Shown here: one piece after another, positions 7,024 through 20,481 of the stretch
Layout: each line of letters opens with the position of its first letter
Numbering within the stretch: position 1 is the first letter of the stretch
Virus record (IMG/VR): IMGVR_UViG_3300047408_000045
Location: 1-21,566 of that record
Source: a virus
Direction: 5' to 3' (one strand)
Length of the DNA: 21,566 nt
The notes under the pieces: model-generated
What the model saw: only the letters and a program-made list of their open reading frames with translations
The model's database searches: none
What the model was told of the DNA's origin: nothing
Translations under genes and position numbers: made by a program

Positions 7024-7351
7024 GCACGAGCAGCTCGACGACGACGTCGTAATCGAGCCCGACCGACCGTTACGGCTGAGCGCCGACGCGATCCGCGCGC
7101 TGACGAAAGCGACCGGGCGTACGTTCTCTGACCTGATGGCCGACGACGACGACGAGGCGAACCGCGTGCAGGTAATGGCATTCGCGGAGCTGCACCGCCG
7201 GCACGCGCGGCTCGGCCACTTGCCCGACGCGAGCGAGCTATGGGAACGGGCCGCGCTCGTGCCCGTCGATTTCGTCGCGCCGGCGCCCGTCGACCCTTTA
7301 GGCGACGCTGGTTCGACAACCTCGCCGCCTTCTGCCGGTACTGGCGACTAA
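7016..7351 (+). CDS. Tail assembly chaperone, short form (gpG-like)
   Basis: A 111-aa acidic protein made when ribosomes do not frameshift. Tail chaperones of this type bind the tape measure during tail assembly and are absent from the virion. It carries a helical segment RLSADAIRALTKATG and an acidic run DDDDEA near residues 45-50. The last 16 residues (after residue 95) are low-complexity Gly/Ser/Thr/Pro, typical of the unshifted end. Position directly before the tape measure is diagnostic together with the slippery site. Confidence 0.82.
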   Translation: MTEHEQLDDDVVIEPDRPLRLSADAIRALTKATGRTFSDLMADDDDEANRVQVMAFAELHRRHARLGHLPDASELWERAALVPVDFVAPAPVDPLGDAGSTTSPPSAGTGD

Positions 7352-7458
7352 CGCCGGATGAGGTCGACGCGCTCGACGACGAAACGTACACGGCGTTCGT
7401 TCGTTTCATGGAGCGCGAAGCACGCGAGATCGAGAAGGCGAGCAAGGCGCGCCGGTAA
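7016..7458 (+). CDS. Tail assembly chaperone, -1 frameshift product (gpGT-like)
   Basis: The long form made by a -1 ribosomal frameshift at 7294-7300. The first 95 residues are shared with the short form. Translation then continues from base 7300 in the -1 frame for 52 residues, giving about 147 aa. The extension contains WFDNLAAFCRYWRLTPDEVD and ends in a charged helix EREAREIEKASKARR. This is well-formed protein with GC-rich codons and no start of its own, as expected for a T domain that recruits the tape measure. The stop TAA overlaps the ATG of the tape measure gene. Confidence 0.82.
7294..7300 (+). promoter_or_regulatory. Programmed -1 frameshift slippery heptamer
   Basis: CCCTTTA, in frame as C-CCT-TTA, matches the canonical X-XXY-YYZ rule. 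After slippage the tRNAs re-pair on CCC-TTT. It sits exactly where the downstream -1 frame becomes protein-like. The A-site codon TTA is infrequent in GC-rich genomes and could slow the ribosome. I did not identify a definite downstream pseudoknot. Confidence 0.85.
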
Positions 7459-9551
7459 TGGCTAGCGGGCCGTCGGTAGTCGTACGCGTTCTCGGCGACC
7501 TGAAAGGCCTCTCGGGCGCCGTCGACGGCGCAGCGACGAAAGGCGCCGGCGCGGCCGGGAAGCTACGCAGCGCCTTTAGCGGGACGCTCGGCGCGCTGAA
7601 TCAATCGGGCGTGCTCGGCCCGTTCTCAGAGGCGCTCGCCGGCGTCGACCAGGCGCTCGGCCAGGTAAGCGAGCACGGCCGCAAGATGGGAACGGTAATG
7701 ATGGGCGTCGGCGGCACTATGGCCGGCGTCGGCGTCGCGCTGAGCGCGCTCGGCAGCAAAGAGAAAGCGTCGCACGAGCAGCTAAAACAGGCGATTGAGA
7801 ATACCGGCAAGTCGTACGACGACTACGGGAAACGCATCGAGGCCGCCGGGAAACATAACGAGCGTTTCGGCATTACGACGCACACTACGAACGACGCGCT
7901 GCGCATACTGACGCAGGCGACGAAATCGCCGGAGAAGGCGCTGCAACTACTCGGTACCGCGACCGACCTCGCCGCCGCGAAGCACGAGGATTTGACGACG
8001 GCGGCGACGCAGATGGGCCGCGCGTACAACGGCGCCGGCAAGATCTTTAAGGAATTCGGGATTACCGCGGCGCCGAAAGTTGCGGCCGCGATGAAGGCGG
8101 TACAGGCCGCGACGAAAGGCGCGAGCGCCGCCGACGAGCACGCGAAGAAAGCGAAGCAGTCGCTCGCCGACTACCTCGAAATCTATAACTCGAAATCGAA
8201 GCACACCATCGCCGATCAACAACATCTGCGCGACAAGATGGTCGCGGTCGCCGACGCCGACGCGAAGGCGCGCGCCGCGCACGTCAAGCTGAGCGCCGCG
8301 CAGGAAGCGAACGCGAAAGCGGCGCGCGGTACCGCCGACAATATGGCGCAGCTCGCGAAGGCGGTACATGGGCAGGCCGAGAAGGCGGCCGATACGTTCA
8401 CCGGGAAACTAAAGGCGATGGGCGCCGGCCTCGAAGATGCCGCCGCACAATTCGGCGAGAAATTCGGCCCGGCGTTAACGGTCGGCGGTACTGCGCTCGC
8501 CGGGCTGGGCGGCGCGATGACGGCGACGCAGGCGATACTCGGCCTGTTTAAGTCGGCGCAGGTTGCGAGCACGGCCGCGACCGAAGGTATGGCCGTCGCC
8601 GAAGATTCGGCGGCCGTGTCAAGCTGGGCGATGCTCGGGCCGATCCTGCTCGTGATCGGCGCGATAGCGGCGCTCGTGCTCGCCGGCTACGTGATCTACC
8701 GAAACTGGAAAACCATCTGGAAAGGAATGCACGCCGCCGTAACGTTCGTCTGGGACTGGATCAAACGTAACTGGCCGCTGCTGCTCGCGATCCTGCTCGG
8801 GCCTATCGGTATCGCCGTCGCGCTGATCGTTCGTAACTGGGACAAGATCAAGGCCGGCATAGCTGCCGCGTACGACTGGATTCGGCATAACTGGCCGCTA
8901 CTGCTCGCGATCCTGACCGGGCCTATCGGCGCGGCCGTGCTGCTCATCGTTCGTAACTGGGACACGATCAAGGGCGCGATTCGCGCGGTCTGGGACTGGA
9001 TACGTACCGCGTTCGGCCAGGTGTACGAATGGCTTACGTCGCCGTTCCGCCGCGCCGCCGACGCGATCCGTACGGCGTTCGGCGCCGTGTACGACTGGAT
9101 ACGCGGCCTACCGGGCCGTATCGCCGACGTGTTCGGCCGCGTGCAGTCGATACTCGCGACGCCGTTCCAGAATGCGGCGAACACAATTCAGCGCCTCGCC
9201 GATTCGATCGTCAATTTTATTACCGGGATACCGGGCCGTATCGCTGGCGCGCTCGGCAGTATCGGTAGCGGCCTGAAAGGCGCGCTGTCGCATATTCCCG
9301 GCGCGAGCGTGATACCGGGCCTCGCTACCGGCGGCTACATAACGCACGAGGGCCTCGCCTATCTGCACGCCGGCGAAACGGTCGTACCGAAGATACCGAC
9401 GCCGTCGTACGGCGCGACCGTGCAGCCGACGAGCGCGGCCGGGAGTACGGCGCCGTCGGTCTGGATCGAGAACCTGACCGTACGCGAATCGCTCGACGTC
9501 GATACGTTCCTGCGGCGCGCCGCCTGGGCCGTGCAGCGCGAAAGGATCTGA
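7458..9551 (+). CDS. Tape measure protein
   Basis: A 697-aa protein that sets tail length and is ejected ahead of the DNA. By the usual rule of about 0.15 nm per residue, the tail would be near 100 nm. Residues 1-330 are mostly long Ala/Lys/Glu helices. A hydrophobic segment at about 391-413 is followed by two near-identical 40-residue units (about 433-512). Each unit reads DWI-x-x-NWPLLLAIL, then GPIG, then LIVRNWD, and each is membrane-active in character. The C-terminus has the familiar ATGGYITHEGLAYLHAGETV segment. It is the longest gene here, directly after the chaperones, and starts within the upstream stop (TAATG). Confidence 0.95.
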   Translation: MASGPSVVVRVLGDLKGLSGAVDGAATKGAGAAGKLRSAFSGTLGALNQSGVLGPFSEALAGVDQALGQVSEHGRKMGTVMMGVGGTMAGVGVALSALGSKEKASHEQLKQAIENTGKSYDDYGKRIEAAGKHNERFGITTHTTNDALRILTQATKSPEKALQLLGTATDLAAAKHEDLTTAATQMGRAYNGAGKIFKEFGITAAPKVAAAMKAVQAATKGASAADEHAKKAKQSLADYLEIYNSKSKHTIADQQHLRDKMVAVADADAKARAAHVKLSAAQEANAKAARGTADNMAQLAKAVHGQAEKAADTFTGKLKAMGAGLEDAAAQFGEKFGPALTVGGTALAGLGGAMTATQAILGLFKSAQVASTAATEGMAVAEDSAAVSSWAMLGPILLVIGAIAALVLAGYVIYRNWKTIWKGMHAAVTFVWDWIKRNWPLLLAILLGPIGIAVALIVRNWDKIKAGIAAAYDWIRHNWPLLLAILTGPIGAAVLLIVRNWDTIKGAIRAVWDWIRTAFGQVYEWLTSPFRRAADAIRTAFGAVYDWIRGLPGRIADVFGRVQSILATPFQNAANTIQRLADSIVNFITGIPGRIAGALGSIGSGLKGALSHIPGASVIPGLATGGYITHEGLAYLHAGETVVPKIPTPSYGATVQPTSAAGSTAPSVWIENLTVRESLDVDTFLRRAAWAVQRERI
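8755..9015 (+). repeat. 120-bp tandem repeat inside the tape measure gene
   Basis: Two units of 120 bp (from about 8755 and 8875), plus the start of a third at 8995, encode the repeated NWPLLLAI...IVRNWD module. Blocks such as AACTGGCCGCT and ATCGTTCGTAACTGGGACA are conserved at DNA level, while other positions have drifted. This points to an old in-frame duplication that lengthened the tail by whole modules. Confidence 0.75.
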
Positions 9552-14229: not shown

Positions 14230-15426
14230 ATGAGCAAGCCTAAGCGCCCGCAGACGCCGCCCGGCATTACGCCGCGCTGGAGCGCCCGCCGTGACGCCTA
14301 CGTGTACCTCGTGCGGTACCGGGCGCCTGACGGCACGAGCAGAGGCCGTACCTGTACGACGCTCGCGCAGGCGCGCACGTATCTCGCCGGCTCGACGGCC
14401 GACCGCAGCCGCGGCGACTGGGTCGACCCGGCGAAAGGCCGCCGCGACCTCGACGGCTGGGCCGACGAATACCTGCGTACCCTCGGTGCGCTCGAACCGC
14501 AGACGCGCGAACGGTACCGTTCGGCGCTCGCGTCGCAGATACGGCCGGCGCTCGGTGCGCTGCCTATCGCGTCGATTGACCAGGCGACCGTTCGTACGTT
14601 CCTCTCGGGCCTGCGCGACGCCGGCTACGCGCGCGGCACCGTCCACAACGCGCGCACGGTCCTATCGGGCGTGCTCGGCCTCGCCGCCGACGCCGGCGCG
14701 ATCCGCGTGAACCCGGCACGCGGCGCGAAGATCGGGAAGGCCGTCGAGGTCGAGCAGGTATTCCTGACCGCGGCGCAGGTCGAGCAGCTCGCCGACGCGA
14801 TCGAGGCGCCGCCGATCAAGCGGCACGGCGAACACCGCGCGCCGACGTACCCGCAGCTCGCGCTCGCCGTACGTTTCGCCGCGTATACGGGCCTACGGGC
14901 CGGCGAGCTATGGGCGCTGCGCGTACGGAACGTCGACCTGCTACGTCGCCGCGTACACGTCGTCGAATCGGCGACGACGACGTCGGGAAAGCTGACGGTC
15001 GGCCCGCCGAAATCGAAACGGCGCCGCACGGTCGCGCTGCCCGCGCATCTGGTCGACCCGCTCGTCGAGCACGTCGCCGGCCTCGACGCCGACGCGCTGG
15101 TATTCGCGGCGCCGCGCGGCGGCATGATGCGACACGGACACTTTTACGGCGACCATTACCTGCCCGCCGTCGCGCGTGCCGGCCTGCCCGCCGCGACCGT
15201 GTTCCATTCGCTGCGGCATACGTGCGCGGCGCTGCTCGCCGCGGCCGGCCTCACTGAGCTGGAGGTAATGGCGCAGCTCGGCCACGCGCAGCCCGTCGCG
15301 ACGTACCGGCACCTATTCCCTGGGAACCTCGACCGCGCCGCCGCCGCGCTCGACCAGGCGTACGAGCGGCGCGACGTCGCCGACGCCGACGTGCTCGACC
15401 TCGACCGAAAGCGGCGCGCGCGCTAG
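14230..15426 (+). CDS. int: Tyrosine-type integrase
   Basis: A 398-aa site-specific recombinase for integration and excision. The N-terminal 60 residues resemble an arm-binding domain (PRWSARRDAYVYLVRYR). A core-binding helical domain (about 70-165) contains WADEYLRTLG. The catalytic domain carries Arg223 in TGLRAGELWALR, the HSLRHT box with His326 and Arg329, His352 in LGH and the nucleophile Tyr359 in TYRHLF. The distance from His352 to Tyr359 is shorter than the usual nine or ten residues. The attP site lies about 290 nt downstream, past one small gene, the standard arrangement. The small zinc-ribbon gene overlaps its stop codon. Confidence 0.95.
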   Translation: MSKPKRPQTPPGITPRWSARRDAYVYLVRYRAPDGTSRGRTCTTLAQARTYLAGSTADRSRGDWVDPAKGRRDLDGWADEYLRTLGALEPQTRERYRSALASQIRPALGALPIASIDQATVRTFLSGLRDAGYARGTVHNARTVLSGVLGLAADAGAIRVNPARGAKIGKAVEVEQVFLTAAQVEQLADAIEAPPIKRHGEHRAPTYPQLALAVRFAAYTGLRAGELWALRVRNVDLLRRRVHVVESATTTSGKLTVGPPKSKRRRTVALPAHLVDPLVEHVAGLDADALVFAAPRGGMMRHGHFYGDHYLPAVARAGLPAATVFHSLRHTCAALLAAAGLTELEVMAQLGHAQPVATYRHLFPGNLDRAAAALDQAYERRDVADADVLDLDRKRRAR

Positions 15427-17031: not shown

Positions 17032-17363
17032 GCGTTCACGCGCACGCGCCGCAGCAAATACACGCGGGCCGGCCGCCGACCGAACGGCGCCGCTGCATCG
17101 CGATTACGAACCCGTCGCCGGGCCGCTGGTTATGGCGATACGACGGCGAGCAGCACGTACGGCGCTACGTCGAGGGCATACCGGGCGAGCAATGTACGAA
17201 CGGCGCGAGCCCGTGGCTGCCAGAGGTCGACTACTGCGCGACGCACCTACCGGCCGACGCCGTGCTGCTCGTGCAACAACGGATCGCGACCTATAACGAG
17301 CTGGCCGCGTACCTCTGGGCGAGCACGCTCGCCGACCATCCGTACCAGGCGGGCGCCTCGTGA
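17028..17363 (+). CDS. Small Cys-containing protein between exonuclease and RecT
   Basis: A 111-aa protein starting with GTG inside the exonuclease stop. Cys23 in RRCIAITN, Cys56 in GEQCTN, and Cys70 with His73 in DYCATH form a possible zinc site. The pattern resembles the small C-G-x-x-C...C-x-x-H proteins seen near phage recombination genes, with a longer spacer between the first two cysteines. The C-terminal 35 residues form a helix. It overlaps the RecT gene start by four bases. Function unknown; an accessory role in recombination is inferred only from position. Confidence 0.65.
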   Translation: MSVHAHAPQQIHAGRPPTERRRCIAITNPSPGRWLWRYDGEQHVRRYVEGIPGEQCTNGASPWLPEVDYCATHLPADAVLLVQQRIATYNELAAYLWASTLADHPYQAGAS

Positions 17364-18433
17364 CGCTCGCGATCTCGCGCGTCGAGCCGGTAACGCGATC
17401 CTGGGTCGAGCTGATGGCGCCCGCCGTCGAGCTAGCGAAAGCGATAGCCGGAACCGAATTCGTACCGGCCGCGCTGCGCAATAAGCCGGCCGCGATAGCC
17501 GCCGCGATCCTGTACGGCGACGAAATCGGCGTCGGCCCTATGCAGTCGCTCGCGACTATCGCCGTGATCGACGGCCGCCCGTTCGTCGCCGCGCAGACGC
17601 AGCGCGGCCTCGTATACGCCGCAGGACACGGCCTATGGCTCGACGAGGCGACGAACACGCGCGCGACCTGGGCCGGCCGCCGGCACGGCGCCGACGAGGT
17701 CACGCGCATTACATGGACAATGGACGACGCACGCCGGGCGAAGCTCGACGGGAAACCGAATTGGCGCGGCTACCCGCGCGCGATGCTTACGGCCCGCGCG
17801 TCGGCTGAGCTGGTACGCGCCGCATTCGCCGACGTCGTCGGCGGCCTCGCCGCTATCGAGGAACTCGACGAATTCGACCCGCAGCTCGTCGGCCTCGGCC
17901 GCGACGTCGAGCCCGGCCCGGCCGCGACCCCCGCCGTCGGCCGGCGCCGGGCTCGAACGCCGAAGCGCGCACCTGCGCCGGCGCTCGTGCCGCCGCTACC
18001 GCAGCCGGCGCCGCGCCCGCGCCCGCCGCTACCCGGCGAGGTCGACGTCGAGCCCGTCGTCGAGCCCGTCGTCGAGGTCGAGCCCGTCGCGCGCGAGCAG
18101 ACGCTGATAACGCCGGCGCAGCGGCGCCGCATGATGGCGCTGTTTAGCAAGGTCGGTATGGGCGGCCGTAGCGAAGATCAACGCGCGCAGCGGCTACGCC
18201 TCTCGGCCGACTGGATCGGCCGCACGGTCGGCAGCTCGAACGACCTCACGAGCGGCGAGGCCGACCGCATAATCGAGGCGCTCGAGCAGCTCGGCGAGCC
18301 CGTCGACGACGTCGAGGCGCCCGCCGGCGAGGCGCCCGACGACGACGACGTCGAGCAGCCCGGCCCGACCGCGCCCGTCGCGCCGCCCGCCGCCGACGTG
18401 CCGCTACCGCTCGACGACGAGCCGCCGCTATGA
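17360..18433 (+). CDS. recT: RecT-type single-strand annealing protein with C-terminal domain
   Basis: A 357-aa protein. Residues 1-180 carry RecT-family signs: GDEIGVGPMQSLATIAVIDG, then RPFVAAQTQRGLVYAAGH, then ITWTMDDARRAKL, and NWRGYPRAMLTARASAELVRAAFADVVGG. The family anneals complementary single strands after exonuclease resection and is used for replication and recombination. A Pro/Arg/Val linker (about 195-248) leads to a small helical domain, TPAQRRRMMALFSKVGM (about 251-312). This unit is also found at the C-terminus of other phage recombination proteins and may bind DNA or SSB. The last 40 residues are acidic and Pro-rich. Confidence 0.9.
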   Translation: MTLAISRVEPVTRSWVELMAPAVELAKAIAGTEFVPAALRNKPAAIAAAILYGDEIGVGPMQSLATIAVIDGRPFVAAQTQRGLVYAAGHGLWLDEATNTRATWAGRRHGADEVTRITWTMDDARRAKLDGKPNWRGYPRAMLTARASAELVRAAFADVVGGLAAIEELDEFDPQLVGLGRDVEPGPAATPAVGRRRARTPKRAPAPALVPPLPQPAPRPRPPLPGEVDVEPVVEPVVEVEPVAREQTLITPAQRRRMMALFSKVGMGGRSEDQRAQRLRLSADWIGRTVGSSNDLTSGEADRIIEALEQLGEPVDDVEAPAGEAPDDDDVEQPGPTAPVAPPAADVPLPLDDEPPL

Positions 18434-18591
18434 CGCTGCTCGTGCTCGTGCTCGTCGCGCTCGGCATGGTCGCCGGCTACGTTGCCGGCCGCCTCGACCG
18501 GGCCGAAACCGACGACGTCGCGAACCGCGTACTCGACGCGCTCGAACGGATCTACGAGCAGCGCGAGCGCGACGAGGACGGCCGGCCGTGA
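18430..18591 (+). CDS. Small single-TM protein
   Basis: A 53-aa protein with ATGA overlap to RecT. It has an N-terminal hydrophobic helix (about residues 2-20, Leu/Val-rich with GYVAGR at the border) and a charged cytoplasmic-type helix ANRVLDALERIYEQRERDE. The layout suggests a membrane-anchored coiled coil. A cryptic membrane peptide inside a recombination/replication operon is unusual; function unknown. Confidence 0.65.
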   Translation: MTLLVLVLVALGMVAGYVAGRLDRAETDDVANRVLDALERIYEQRERDEDGRP

Positions 18592-18812
18592 CCGCGCCCG
18601 CCTGGCCGCTCGTGCCGCCGCCGCGGCTGCTCGACCTCGCCGTCGAGATACCGGCCGGACCCTGGGAGTACCGGCGCAGTCTCGACGGCAGCGGCGCGCT
18701 GATTCTCTGGGATGGCGAATGGCCGCTCGCGCTGATTTACGGCGGCGTCGACCTCGCGAAATACCTGCGCCTGGTATCGCCGGCGCTACTGCTCGGGCGG
18801 CTGGAGGGCTAA
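18588..18812 (+). CDS. Hypothetical protein upstream of the initiator
   Basis: A 74-aa protein starting with GTG inside the stop of the TM gene and ending in TAATG with the next. It contains the beta-like segment PAGPWEYRRSLDGSGALILWDG, then LALIYGG and a C-terminal helix. It has a clean GC-rich codon pattern and tight coupling, so it is probably real. I do not recognise the family. Confidence 0.65.
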   Translation: MTAPAWPLVPPPRLLDLAVEIPAGPWEYRRSLDGSGALILWDGEWPLALIYGGVDLAKYLRLVSPALLLGRLEG

Positions 18813-19414
18813 TGCCGTTCGTACTGATCTACACCGACGACGACGTCGCCGACCTCGTAAAGCTGTTCGAGCAGCTCGCCGACGCCGATTTCGAGAGCTG
18901 GGAATTCGGCGACGCCGTGCTCGTACGCGTCGAGCCCGGCGACGACGGCCCGCCCGGCGCGCGCTCGTCGGCGGCGCGCCGGCAGGCCCGGTACCGGCAG
19001 CGGCAGAAAGCGGCGCGCGGTACCGTCGGCCGGCGACCTCGACCCGCCGACGACGACGACGAGGGCGCCGAAAGCGTTACGCGGCGCGTAACGCAAGGCG
19101 TAACGCCGCGTAACGCCGTGACGCGTAACGACCGTAACGAAAGCGTTACGGTCGACGCCGAAATTCTGCCAATTTTCGGGGGTAGTAACACTCTCAGCCC
19201 TGACAGGGCTGAGAGAGTGTTACTGCCCGACCCCGTTACGCGTGACGTAACGCGTGACGTTACGCGTAACGCCGTTACGCGTAACGCGCGTAACGCAGAC
19301 GCGGGCGAGGAATGGCGCTCGGATGCTCGGCCGCTCGACGACGACGAACGAGCCCGCGCGCATGCCGGCCTCGCCGCCGCCCGCGCTGCCCTACGAGAAA
19401 GCGGCCGACCATGA
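18812..19414 (+). CDS. Replication-initiator-like protein carrying the iteron/hairpin array
   Basis: A 200-aa protein. Residues 1-45 are a small alpha/beta domain (FVLIYTDDDVADLVKLFEQL). A basic patch at 56-67 (RRQARYRQRQKA) is of the kind common at the start of phage replication and DNA-binding proteins. Residues 89-115 and 142-162 are repetitive VTRN/VTRD/RNAVTR blocks, and the C-terminus is charged and helical. The repetitive peptide is simply the translation of the GTAAC/GTTAC array. That suggests the DNA is what is conserved, as in lambda O, where iterons lie inside the initiator gene. No ATPase or primase motif is present. The initiator role is inferred from the array and from operon position. 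Confidence 0.6.
   Translation: MPFVLIYTDDDVADLVKLFEQLADADFESWEFGDAVLVRVEPGDDGPPGARSSAARRQARYRQRQKAARGTVGRRPRPADDDDEGAESVTRRVTQGVTPRNAVTRNDRNESVTVDAEILPIFGGSNTLSPDRAERVLLPDPVTRDVTRDVTRNAVTRNARNADAGEEWRSDARPLDDDERARAHAGLAAARAALRESGRP
19074..19296. repeat. Iteron array around a hairpin, candidate replication origin
   Basis: Seven copies of GTAAC or GTTAC, mostly as GCGTAACGC, lie at 19074-19151 and seven at 19233-19296. Approximate 9-mer starts: 19074, 19086, 19098, 19108, 19123, 19132, 19143; 19233, 19245, 19257, 19264, 19272, 19279, 19288. Between them are an AT-rich patch (about 19161-19176) and a large hairpin (19180-19228) whose stem base also reads GTAAC/GTTAC. Both orientations occur, so many neighbours form inverted pairs. 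Iterons, an AT-rich segment and a hairpin are standard parts of phage and plasmid origins. Confidence 0.7.
19180..19228. repeat. 22-bp hairpin at the centre of the iteron array
   Basis: Left arm 19184-19201, loop GAC (19202-19204), right arm 19205-19224: 18 pairs interrupted by a 2-nt AG bulge. The stem extends by a T-G wobble and three G-C pairs to 19180/19228. It is less GC-rich than its surroundings. There is no U-tract and it lies within a coding frame, so a terminator is unlikely. Confidence 0.85.
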
Positions 19415-19704
19415 GCGCCGACCGCTACGTGCTGCTCGTACTGAGCAAGGGCGCGACCGTGCATGAGTGCCGCGACTGCGGCGCCGTCGTATTCCACCGC
19501 CTCGTACATGACGCCTGGCATGCCGTGAACGAGGCCGAAGCGTTACGCCTCGCGCAGCTCGTCGACGACGTGCTCGGCCGCTCGCACGTACAGGTAGTCG
19601 CCGACGTCGGCGTCGACGCCGACCTCGACGCCGCCTATCTGGCCGCGCAACTCACCGCGCACCGTGCCATTCGCGAGTATCGCAGCGATGCCCGACGCAA
19701 CTAG
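19411..19704 (+). CDS. Small zinc-finger-like protein
   Basis: A 97-aa protein with ATGA overlap to the initiator gene. Cys20-x-x-Cys23 and His33-x3-His37 (ECRDCGAVV...HDAWH) form a plausible C2H2-type zinc site. The C-terminal part is a helix-strand-helix with ADVGVDADLDAAYLA. Similar short CxxCG...HxxWH proteins are common in actinophage genomes, with unknown role. The next gene probably starts inside its last 17 bases. Confidence 0.65.
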   Translation: MSADRYVLLVLSKGATVHECRDCGAVVFHRLVHDAWHAVNEAEALRLAQLVDDVLGRSHVQVVADVGVDADLDAAYLAAQLTAHRAIREYRSDARRN

Positions 19705-20206
19705 GCGCCTCGCCTACGCCGACCCGCCGTACCCTGGGCAGGCCGCCCGGTACGCCGGCGGGCGCGAGGTCGACCTGCCCGCGCTCGTCGAGCAGCTACG
19801 CACCTACGACGGCTGGGCGCTCTCGACCTCCGCGTCGGCGCTGCGCGACGTCTGGAACCTATGCCCAGAGGCCCGCTGCGCCGCCTGGGTGAAAACCTGG
19901 GCCTCGAACGGCTGGGCGCGCGTGCGGTACTGCTGGGAGCCCGTCCTATTCGTAACCGACCGTCGCGGCCTACAACCCGGCGAACGGTCGACCGTATGGG
20001 ACGCGCTCGTATCGTCGCCCGGCTATGGCTGGTCTGAGGTCGCCGGCAAGGGCGGCGGCGCGAAACCGCACGCGTTCGTACGCTGGCTGCTCGACCTGCT
20101 CGACTACACCGACGGCGACGAGCTGGTCGACCTATTCCCAGGTAGCGGCACCGTCGGCCGATCGGCCCGCTACGACCAGACCGCATTATTCGAGGCGGCG
20201 CAGTAA
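19688..20206 (+). CDS. DNA methyltransferase (DPPY type, small)
   Basis: A 172-aa enzyme. The catalytic motif IV is DPPY at residues 12-15. The AdoMet-binding motif I is DLFPGSG at 148-154, near the C-terminus. This permuted order is that of beta-class amino-methyltransferases, and DPPY favours N6-adenine. There is little room for a separate target-recognition domain. Start set at 19688 so that eight residues precede DPPY; a GTG at 19664 is possible. It sits between a zinc-finger gene and an HNH endonuclease. Likely role: modifying phage DNA against host restriction, or marking the origin or packaging site. No matching restriction gene is evident; HNH is not shown to be one. Confidence 0.85.
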   Translation: MPDATRRLAYADPPYPGQAARYAGGREVDLPALVEQLRTYDGWALSTSASALRDVWNLCPEARCAAWVKTWASNGWARVRYCWEPVLFVTDRRGLQPGERSTVWDALVSSPGYGWSEVAGKGGGAKPHAFVRWLLDLLDYTDGDELVDLFPGSGTVGRSARYDQTALFEAAQ

Positions 20207-20481
20207 TGCCCGGCCGGCCGCTACCTCGAACGCGCGGCTACCGCGACCTATGCGACTACGTGCTCGCCCGCGATCGCAACCTCTGTCAGATACAAGGCCC
20301 GACGTGTACCCGCGTCGCTACAGAGGTCGACCATATCGTCGCCCGCGCCGACGGCGGCGACGTCTGGGCGGCCTCGAACCTGCGGGCCTCGTGCCGGGCC
20401 TGTAATGCCCGCAGAGGCGCCGAACGAACGAACGCCGCCCGCTACCGCACCGGGCTCGCCCGGTACGAGACACGGCTATGA
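20206..20481 (+). CDS. HNH endonuclease
   Basis: A 91-aa protein with a complete HNH fold: TEVDHIVARADGGD (Asp42-His43), SNLRASCRACNARRG (Asn58, Asn67), and zinc cysteines 27, 34, 63 and 66. The start overlaps the methyltransferase stop (TAATG). It lies about 1.1 kb before the right end; if the ends join, TerS and TerL follow on the other side. Small HNH proteins beside terminase are known packaging partners in HK97-type phages, where they help cut cos. A homing or restriction role is the alternative. Confidence 0.9.
   Translation: MPGRPLPRTRGYRDLCDYVLARDRNLCQIQGPTCTRVATEVDHIVARADGGDVWAASNLRASCRACNARRGAERTNAARYRTGLARYETRL

Follow-up and report, generated by a model that had tools for sequence, protein, structure and literature searches.

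A hairpin-centred array of short words inside an early gene is probably the replication origin of a ~21-kb tailed phage

In phage lambda, the replication origin is located in the middle of gene O, where the iterons adjoin an AT-rich region (PMC7466680). By analogy with lambda, the origin of the RepA-dependent extrachromosomal mycobacteriophages has been suspected upstream of or within repA; that system differs from the locus described here, since no repeated words were found by its authors and RepA has a helix-turn-helix domain (PMC7157519). In the RepA_N-type origin of the V. cholerae PLE, repeated semi-palindromic words are bound by the initiator in a small replicon that uses host or helper machinery (PMC7145576). 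The locus shares these traits, but the PLE origin, recognised by a RepA_N protein, lies in noncoding DNA, whereas the site analysed here is coding and its protein is unrelated by Pfam and PHROG.

The locus belongs to a viral IMG/VR record, 21,566 bp long, the whole of which was analysed and is called the window. An initial annotation of this DNA had noted fourteen words, seven on each side of a hairpin inside a coding gene, and this count is exact: 14 CGTWACG words are present in 221 bp (19075-19295), seven to the left and seven to the right of the hairpin, inside the ORF 18812-19414. The best reading of the element is an in-gene, hairpin-centred iteron origin, with the logic of lambda O, an unrelated protein and a bipartite layout. 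To judge from its sequence, it is probably the replication origin of the phage, placed within the very gene that is the candidate for encoding the initiator. The features of the region are the following (window positions, with the strand for genes and protein segments).

17360-18433, plus strand: RecT-like annealing protein (phrog_4171, E=1.4e-46), upstream of the array gene
18588-18812, plus strand: p74, small conserved neighbour directly upstream of the array gene, with a homologue in the equivalent position in 8 loci
18812-19414, plus strand: array gene, 200 aa, candidate initiator (ORF; 12 homologues)
18812-18943, plus strand: N-terminal small beta-alpha-beta-beta domain, codons 1-44 (AlphaFold2, mean pLDDT about 70, no PDB match)
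18956-19021, plus strand: arginine-rich helix RRQARYRQRQ, codons 49-70 (conserved in homologues; helix in the AlphaFold2 model)
19075-19150: left half-array, CGTWACG starting at 19075, 19087, 19099, 19109, 19124, 19133 and 19144; CGTGACG at 19117
19160-19177: AT-rich patch GAAATTCTGCCAATTTTC between the left array and the hairpin, candidate unwinding element
19180-19228: central hairpin of about 21 bp with a 2-nt bulge; the stem holds GTAAC (19185) and GTTAC (19219)
19234-19295: right half-array, CGTWACG starting at 19234, 19246, 19258, 19265, 19273, 19280 and 19289; CGTGACG at 19241 and 19253
19340-19402, plus strand: C-terminal helix PLDDDERARAHAGLAAARAALR, candidate partner-binding tail (pLDDT about 90-97; conserved in 13 homologues)
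20206-20481, plus strand: HNH endonuclease, followed across the record ends by the packaging module (TerS/TerL), in an order collinear with that of the relative L007
231-518: TerS-like ORF directly before TerL, conserved in relatives

The word CGTNACG is palindromic apart from its central base, so the mixed orientation, regarded at first as a distinctive trait, carries little weight for the window array. The three CGTGACG words fit the same pattern, and so do the GTAAC and GTTAC at the base of the stem, these two having rightly been recognised at the outset as copies of the array word; the general word is therefore taken to be GTNAC, with a total of 19 in the array. In the entire 21.6-kb record CGTWACG appears 27 times, compared with 10.0 in dinucleotide shuffles (sd 3.0, max 18), and the 13 words outside the array are scattered singles that form no second cluster.

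Concerning the centre of the array, the initial annotation placed a 22-bp hairpin at 19180-19228. A strong hairpin is indeed present there, but the bulge and the length of the stem show that it is not a perfect one of 22 bp. The DNA fold of 19170-19240 reaches -22.7 kcal/mol versus -7.5 in shuffles (z -7.6, 0/200), and the hairpin energy is -19.1 kcal/mol versus a mean of -7.3 in synonymous samples (0/500 as strong). The AT-rich patch reported between the left array and the hairpin is also there, and the least stable 25-mer of the array gene, which starts at 19171 and overlaps the patch, belongs to the lowest 0.35% of the whole record. A search with the exact hairpin sequence found nothing. 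An intrinsic terminator was rejected since there is no T-run 3' of the hairpin, where the sequence is CTGCCCGACCCC. A rolling-circle origin was also set aside, because the loops differ among relatives, with no conserved loop sequence, and no HUH Rep endonuclease was found among the early genes scanned by Pfam and PHROG.

Selection on the array was analysed by synonymous permutation, in which the protein and the codon usage are held constant and the synonymous codons are permuted. The array gene of the window contains 14 words versus a mean of 4.1 and a maximum of 9 in the permutations (0/1000), and this excess over every permutation indicates selection on the DNA rather than on the peptide. 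When 24 window genes were scored without a preset word, the array gene presented the top 7-mer excess (z 10.0; the next was the integrase gene, 6.5). Hence the VTRN/VTRD repeats of the peptide follow from the DNA, as had been supposed.

The same layout is found in other phages. Relatives were searched with RecT as the anchor and then with a zinc-finger-like gene adjacent to their array gene, and 12 further viral contigs carry a homologue of the array gene in the same position. In 13/13 loci, a hairpin separates two half-arrays (left/right words 7/7, 6/7, 4/5, 5/7, 7/5, 7/7, 7/6, 8/10, 4/6, 7/8, 3/6, 5/7 and 8/8), with the hairpin centre at 0.46-0.62 of the array, as calculated from coordinates with the single outlying words in L015, L016 and L020 excluded. 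The word is largely uniform within each array and differs between phages: CGTWACG in the window, L007 and L017; GTNAC or GTSAC in L006, L008, L014, L016, L032 and L038; GCGACGC/CGACGC in L005, L018 and L020; and GGGGAC/GTCCCC, which is non-palindromic and appears in mixed orientation, in L015. Since the word turns over fully among relatives while the layout stays, the coevolution of initiator and word would, if the origin reading is true, become directly testable by swaps.

Within single genes the words occupy several reading phases and both orientations, and the peptide encoded by the array varies freely across relatives (VTRN, RDA, LSPE, VPGI). The words exceed the synonymous permutation in 12 of the 13 loci, L018 being the exception (66/1000); the words of the relatives were picked after a k-mer scan, which makes their p-values optimistic; the word of the window had been named beforehand in the initial annotation. 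Retention of the array in related phages, with DNA conserved beyond protein, had been put forward as a check on the first reading, and these 12 loci, the permutations and the changing peptide bear it out. Furthermore, the hairpin energies lie at the far end of the synonymous samples in 13/13 loci (0-12 of 500), and a comparison of L006, L014 and L008 (three sequences only) reveals three stem pairs in which both partners have changed in a compensatory manner, including the central base of the stem-base word. In most loci, the least stable 25-mer of the gene is located between the half-arrays, beside the hairpin.

The distribution of the layout was also delimited. No such array was found downstream of RecT in the more distant RecT relatives L019, L022, L024, L026, L027 and L030, nor near RecT in the named relatives Frokostdame, Sleepyhead, Kukla and P1312. 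The small terminase relatives RRH1, Emperor, GMA5, McGonagall and Schiebs presented no comparable array (GC-rich clusters in tail genes were disregarded), and a RecT scan of genome contigs gave no match.

Regarding the protein encoded by the array gene, no Pfam or PHROG match, and thus no recognised initiator or DNA-binding domain, was obtained. Pfam and PHROG revealed no O-like winged-helix initiator domain, and the fold search with the low-confidence AlphaFold2 model was empty as well: Foldseek showed no match for the N-terminal domain or the model. There was also no Pfam match to a Rep family of the RepA_N or Rep_3 type. Four arginines of the arginine-rich helix (R55, R57, R60 and R62) are nearly invariant across the 13 homologues. 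Residues 88-156, which are those encoded by the array, are predicted by AlphaFold2 to be mostly disordered, between the arginine-rich helix and the well predicted C-terminal helix. As this stretch seems to be a disordered linker, the gene could accommodate any word whose translation is acceptable as a linker. The L007 homologue matches phrog_2447, annotated as 'replication initiation protein' (E=1.9e-4), a weak match that may rest partly on the repeated peptide. Searching with the 200-aa protein of the window gave no match among named phages or viral contigs, the L007 protein as query returned only noise, and an HMM built on the C-terminal helix retrieved the 13 proteins alone and neither L040 nor RRH1 orf17. 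At L040:4380-4500, the second half of a wHTH replisome-organiser-like ORF contains several words similar to GGTAGCGG/CCGCTACC.

The initial annotation compared the site with the lambda origin inside gene O, with a different architecture. The analogy stands for the logic: in both, an early-region gene known or proposed to encode the initiator contains short repeated words, with an easily melted AT-rich tract beside the words, and a repeat-encoded peptide that would serve as a linker. It does not extend to the protein domain, which is not O-like, unlike that of the lambda O family. The architecture also differs, since the window has two half-arrays with a central hairpin, whereas lambda-type origins have one array followed by the AT-rich tract, and the window words are far more numerous and shorter.

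O-like genes are present in two lineages of the phages related to the window by their terminase. Gp22 of Curtobacterium phage Root is assigned by PHROG to 'replication initiation O-like' (phrog_8540, E=1.7e-35), and its gene contains GTSAC words followed by an AT-rich tract (L058:14330-14460). Gp23 of Arthrobacter phage Decurro (L060) is also an O-like initiator by PHROG, with GACACC and GGGGGTA words in the gene and then an AT-rich tract. In both phages the gene belongs to the early region that precedes the end of the genome, and the words differ between the two. Repeated words inside the gene were also observed in the O-like genes of Pseudomonas CF183a, Vibrio K71 and Arthrobacter Galaxy. 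None of these five O-like genes presents a central hairpin flanked by two half-arrays, and no published description of this layout was found within the open-access literature.

Similar arrays appear in two unrelated genes. In L023, a more distant RecT relative, GAGCCGG/CCGGCTC words are located on both sides of a hairpin (8960-8988) at 8793-9032, in the 3' end of a Toprim+AAA_25 gene, with 11 words versus a maximum of 9 in permutations; this array is a second candidate for an in-gene origin with a similar layout. L069, an IMG record found by the DNA pattern alone, carries 14 CGTSACG words at 7700-8070 (synonymous mean 3.0, max 10), which flank an inverted repeat, GGAGGAGGAG...CTCCTCCTCC, whose centre is AT-rich; the gene that contains them (minus strand, 7040-8500) shows a sub-threshold DnaA_N match (E 0.0035). 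These parallels suggest that arrays of such kind belong to replication genes. A wider proposal, which is speculative and more doubtful than credible at present, is that 'half-array, melting patch, hairpin, half-array' could be a distinct class of phage origin, a self-contained DNA module in coding sequence that would be read in ~21-kb phages by initiators of a new family and would also occur inside unrelated replication genes (the Toprim/AAA_25 gene of L023 and the DnaA_N-like gene of L069); the word would be replaced as a whole from one lineage to another and the layout would persist.

As to how such an origin could work, the preferred version, leaning slightly to the side of belief, is that the array protein itself is the initiator. 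Several copies of it, through the N-terminal domain and the arginine-rich helix, would bind the words on both sides and wrap the DNA, and this wrapping would open the AT-rich patch. The hairpin could then extrude as a cruciform or on the freed single strand, and it might keep the bubble open or be the loading site for the host helicase and primase, perhaps via the conserved C-terminal helix. If true, an initiator and an origin could be named for ~21-kb tailed phages without recognisable replication proteins, which previously had no candidate. Moreover, there would be an unrecognised initiator family, and in-gene origins of metagenomic phages could be located by a simple marker, a coding word array with a hairpin.

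The genomic context was analysed with Pfam and PHROG. The early genes of the window encode an integrase, an excisionase-like HTH protein, an exonuclease, RecT, p74, the array protein, a small CxxC/HxxxxH protein, an adenine-methylase-like ORF and the HNH endonuclease. The contigs G004 and G011, which carry L008 and L032, have identical ends of 127 and 81 bp, so they are complete, circular or circularly permuted genomes of ~20-21 kb. The two ends of the window come together in L007, where the segment from HNH to TerL is continuous, which implies that the window is close to a whole genome. The phages related by terminase are the smallest tailed actinophages, of 14-17 kb. No DnaB-type helicase (DnaB_C) was found in the 16 records searched, and no P-like helicase loader was recognised in the window record. 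The initial statement that this phage has no polymerase, primase or helicase of its own thus holds as far as scanned, in a record near genome length. Cumulative GC skew, suggested at the outset as a further check, does not point to the array: the window minimum is about 2.4 kb away, and in other genomes the extremes miss it by 0.6-8 kb.

Some neighbouring genes deserve a mention. The adenine-methylase-like ORF of the window (19664-20206) presents an ADPPY motif and a MethyltransfD12 match just under the cut-off (E=4e-4), and it was not seen at that place in L007. Directly upstream of the array gene, seven relatives encode a small C2H2-like protein (e.g. L006:7294-7545), whereas the window has a 97-aa CxxC/HxxxxH protein downstream of the array gene.

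Within the origin reading, the words could instead be read by another phage or host protein, such as the neighbouring zinc-finger-like protein or a host factor. This version is unlikely, but it draws on the GTSAC words that recur in Root with an unrelated wHTH O-like protein, on the C2H2-like protein just upstream in seven relatives and on the N-terminal domain of the array protein, which has no known DNA-binding fold. Nevertheless, the words differ among relatives, as expected for a fast-changing phage reader protein, and the C2H2 set is not conserved, one His being lost in L005.

If the element were not an origin, it could be a multi-site operator, to which a phage repressor or the array protein would bind cooperatively and so switch off its own gene or else the early operon. 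Clustered near-palindromic words suit the binding of a dimer, and the array gene is in the early region of an integrase-bearing phage. However, the array is in the middle of a gene and not at a promoter, the record holds no second cluster, the conserved hairpin and the easily melted patch would be superfluous for an operator, and in related phages the corresponding genome region is occupied by an O-like initiator, all of which makes this function improbable.

The two half-arrays around a centre are also reminiscent of a packaging site. In phage P1, pac consists of hexamer clusters that flank the cut or functional centre inside the small-terminase gene. A terminase or accessory protein could likewise recognise the two arrays and cut between them; the array gene lies about 2-3 kb before HNH-TerS-TerL, the contigs end at differing places, and two of them have identical ends. 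P1 pac also shares with the window the position of its clusters inside a coding gene, but that gene is the small terminase subunit itself, whereas in the window TerS is a separate gene and the array is outside it. This TerS-like ORF is conserved directly before TerL, HNH is beside TerS in relatives, the array protein has no TerS match, and the cluster AN terminase relatives have 11-base 3' cohesive ends (PMC5513430). A packaging function therefore has a very small probability.

An even smaller one is given to an RNA element, in which the hairpin and the words would function at the mRNA level and the arginine-rich helix would bind RNA, in the manner of lambda N antitermination. Folded as RNA, the hairpin is strong (-39.9 kcal/mol, z -6.8), and the helix resembles RNA-binding motifs. 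Nevertheless, the words appear in both orientations, even where they are non-palindromic (GGGGAC/GTCCCC in L015, GAGCCGG/CCGGCTC in L023), which suits duplex DNA; there was no Rfam match, and the missing T-run discards a terminator. Finally, a by-product of a low-complexity peptide, for which the VTRN/VTRD repeats of the translation might speak, can be dismissed, as it is refuted for the window by the synonymous permutation, the peptides of relatives vary while the architecture is constant, and the array-encoded stretch is predicted to be disordered.

In addition to the array gene, the integrase gene of the window (14230-15426) contains 14 CGCCGCG words, above its synonymous permutations (z 6.5), which may merely reflect GC-rich codon pairs.
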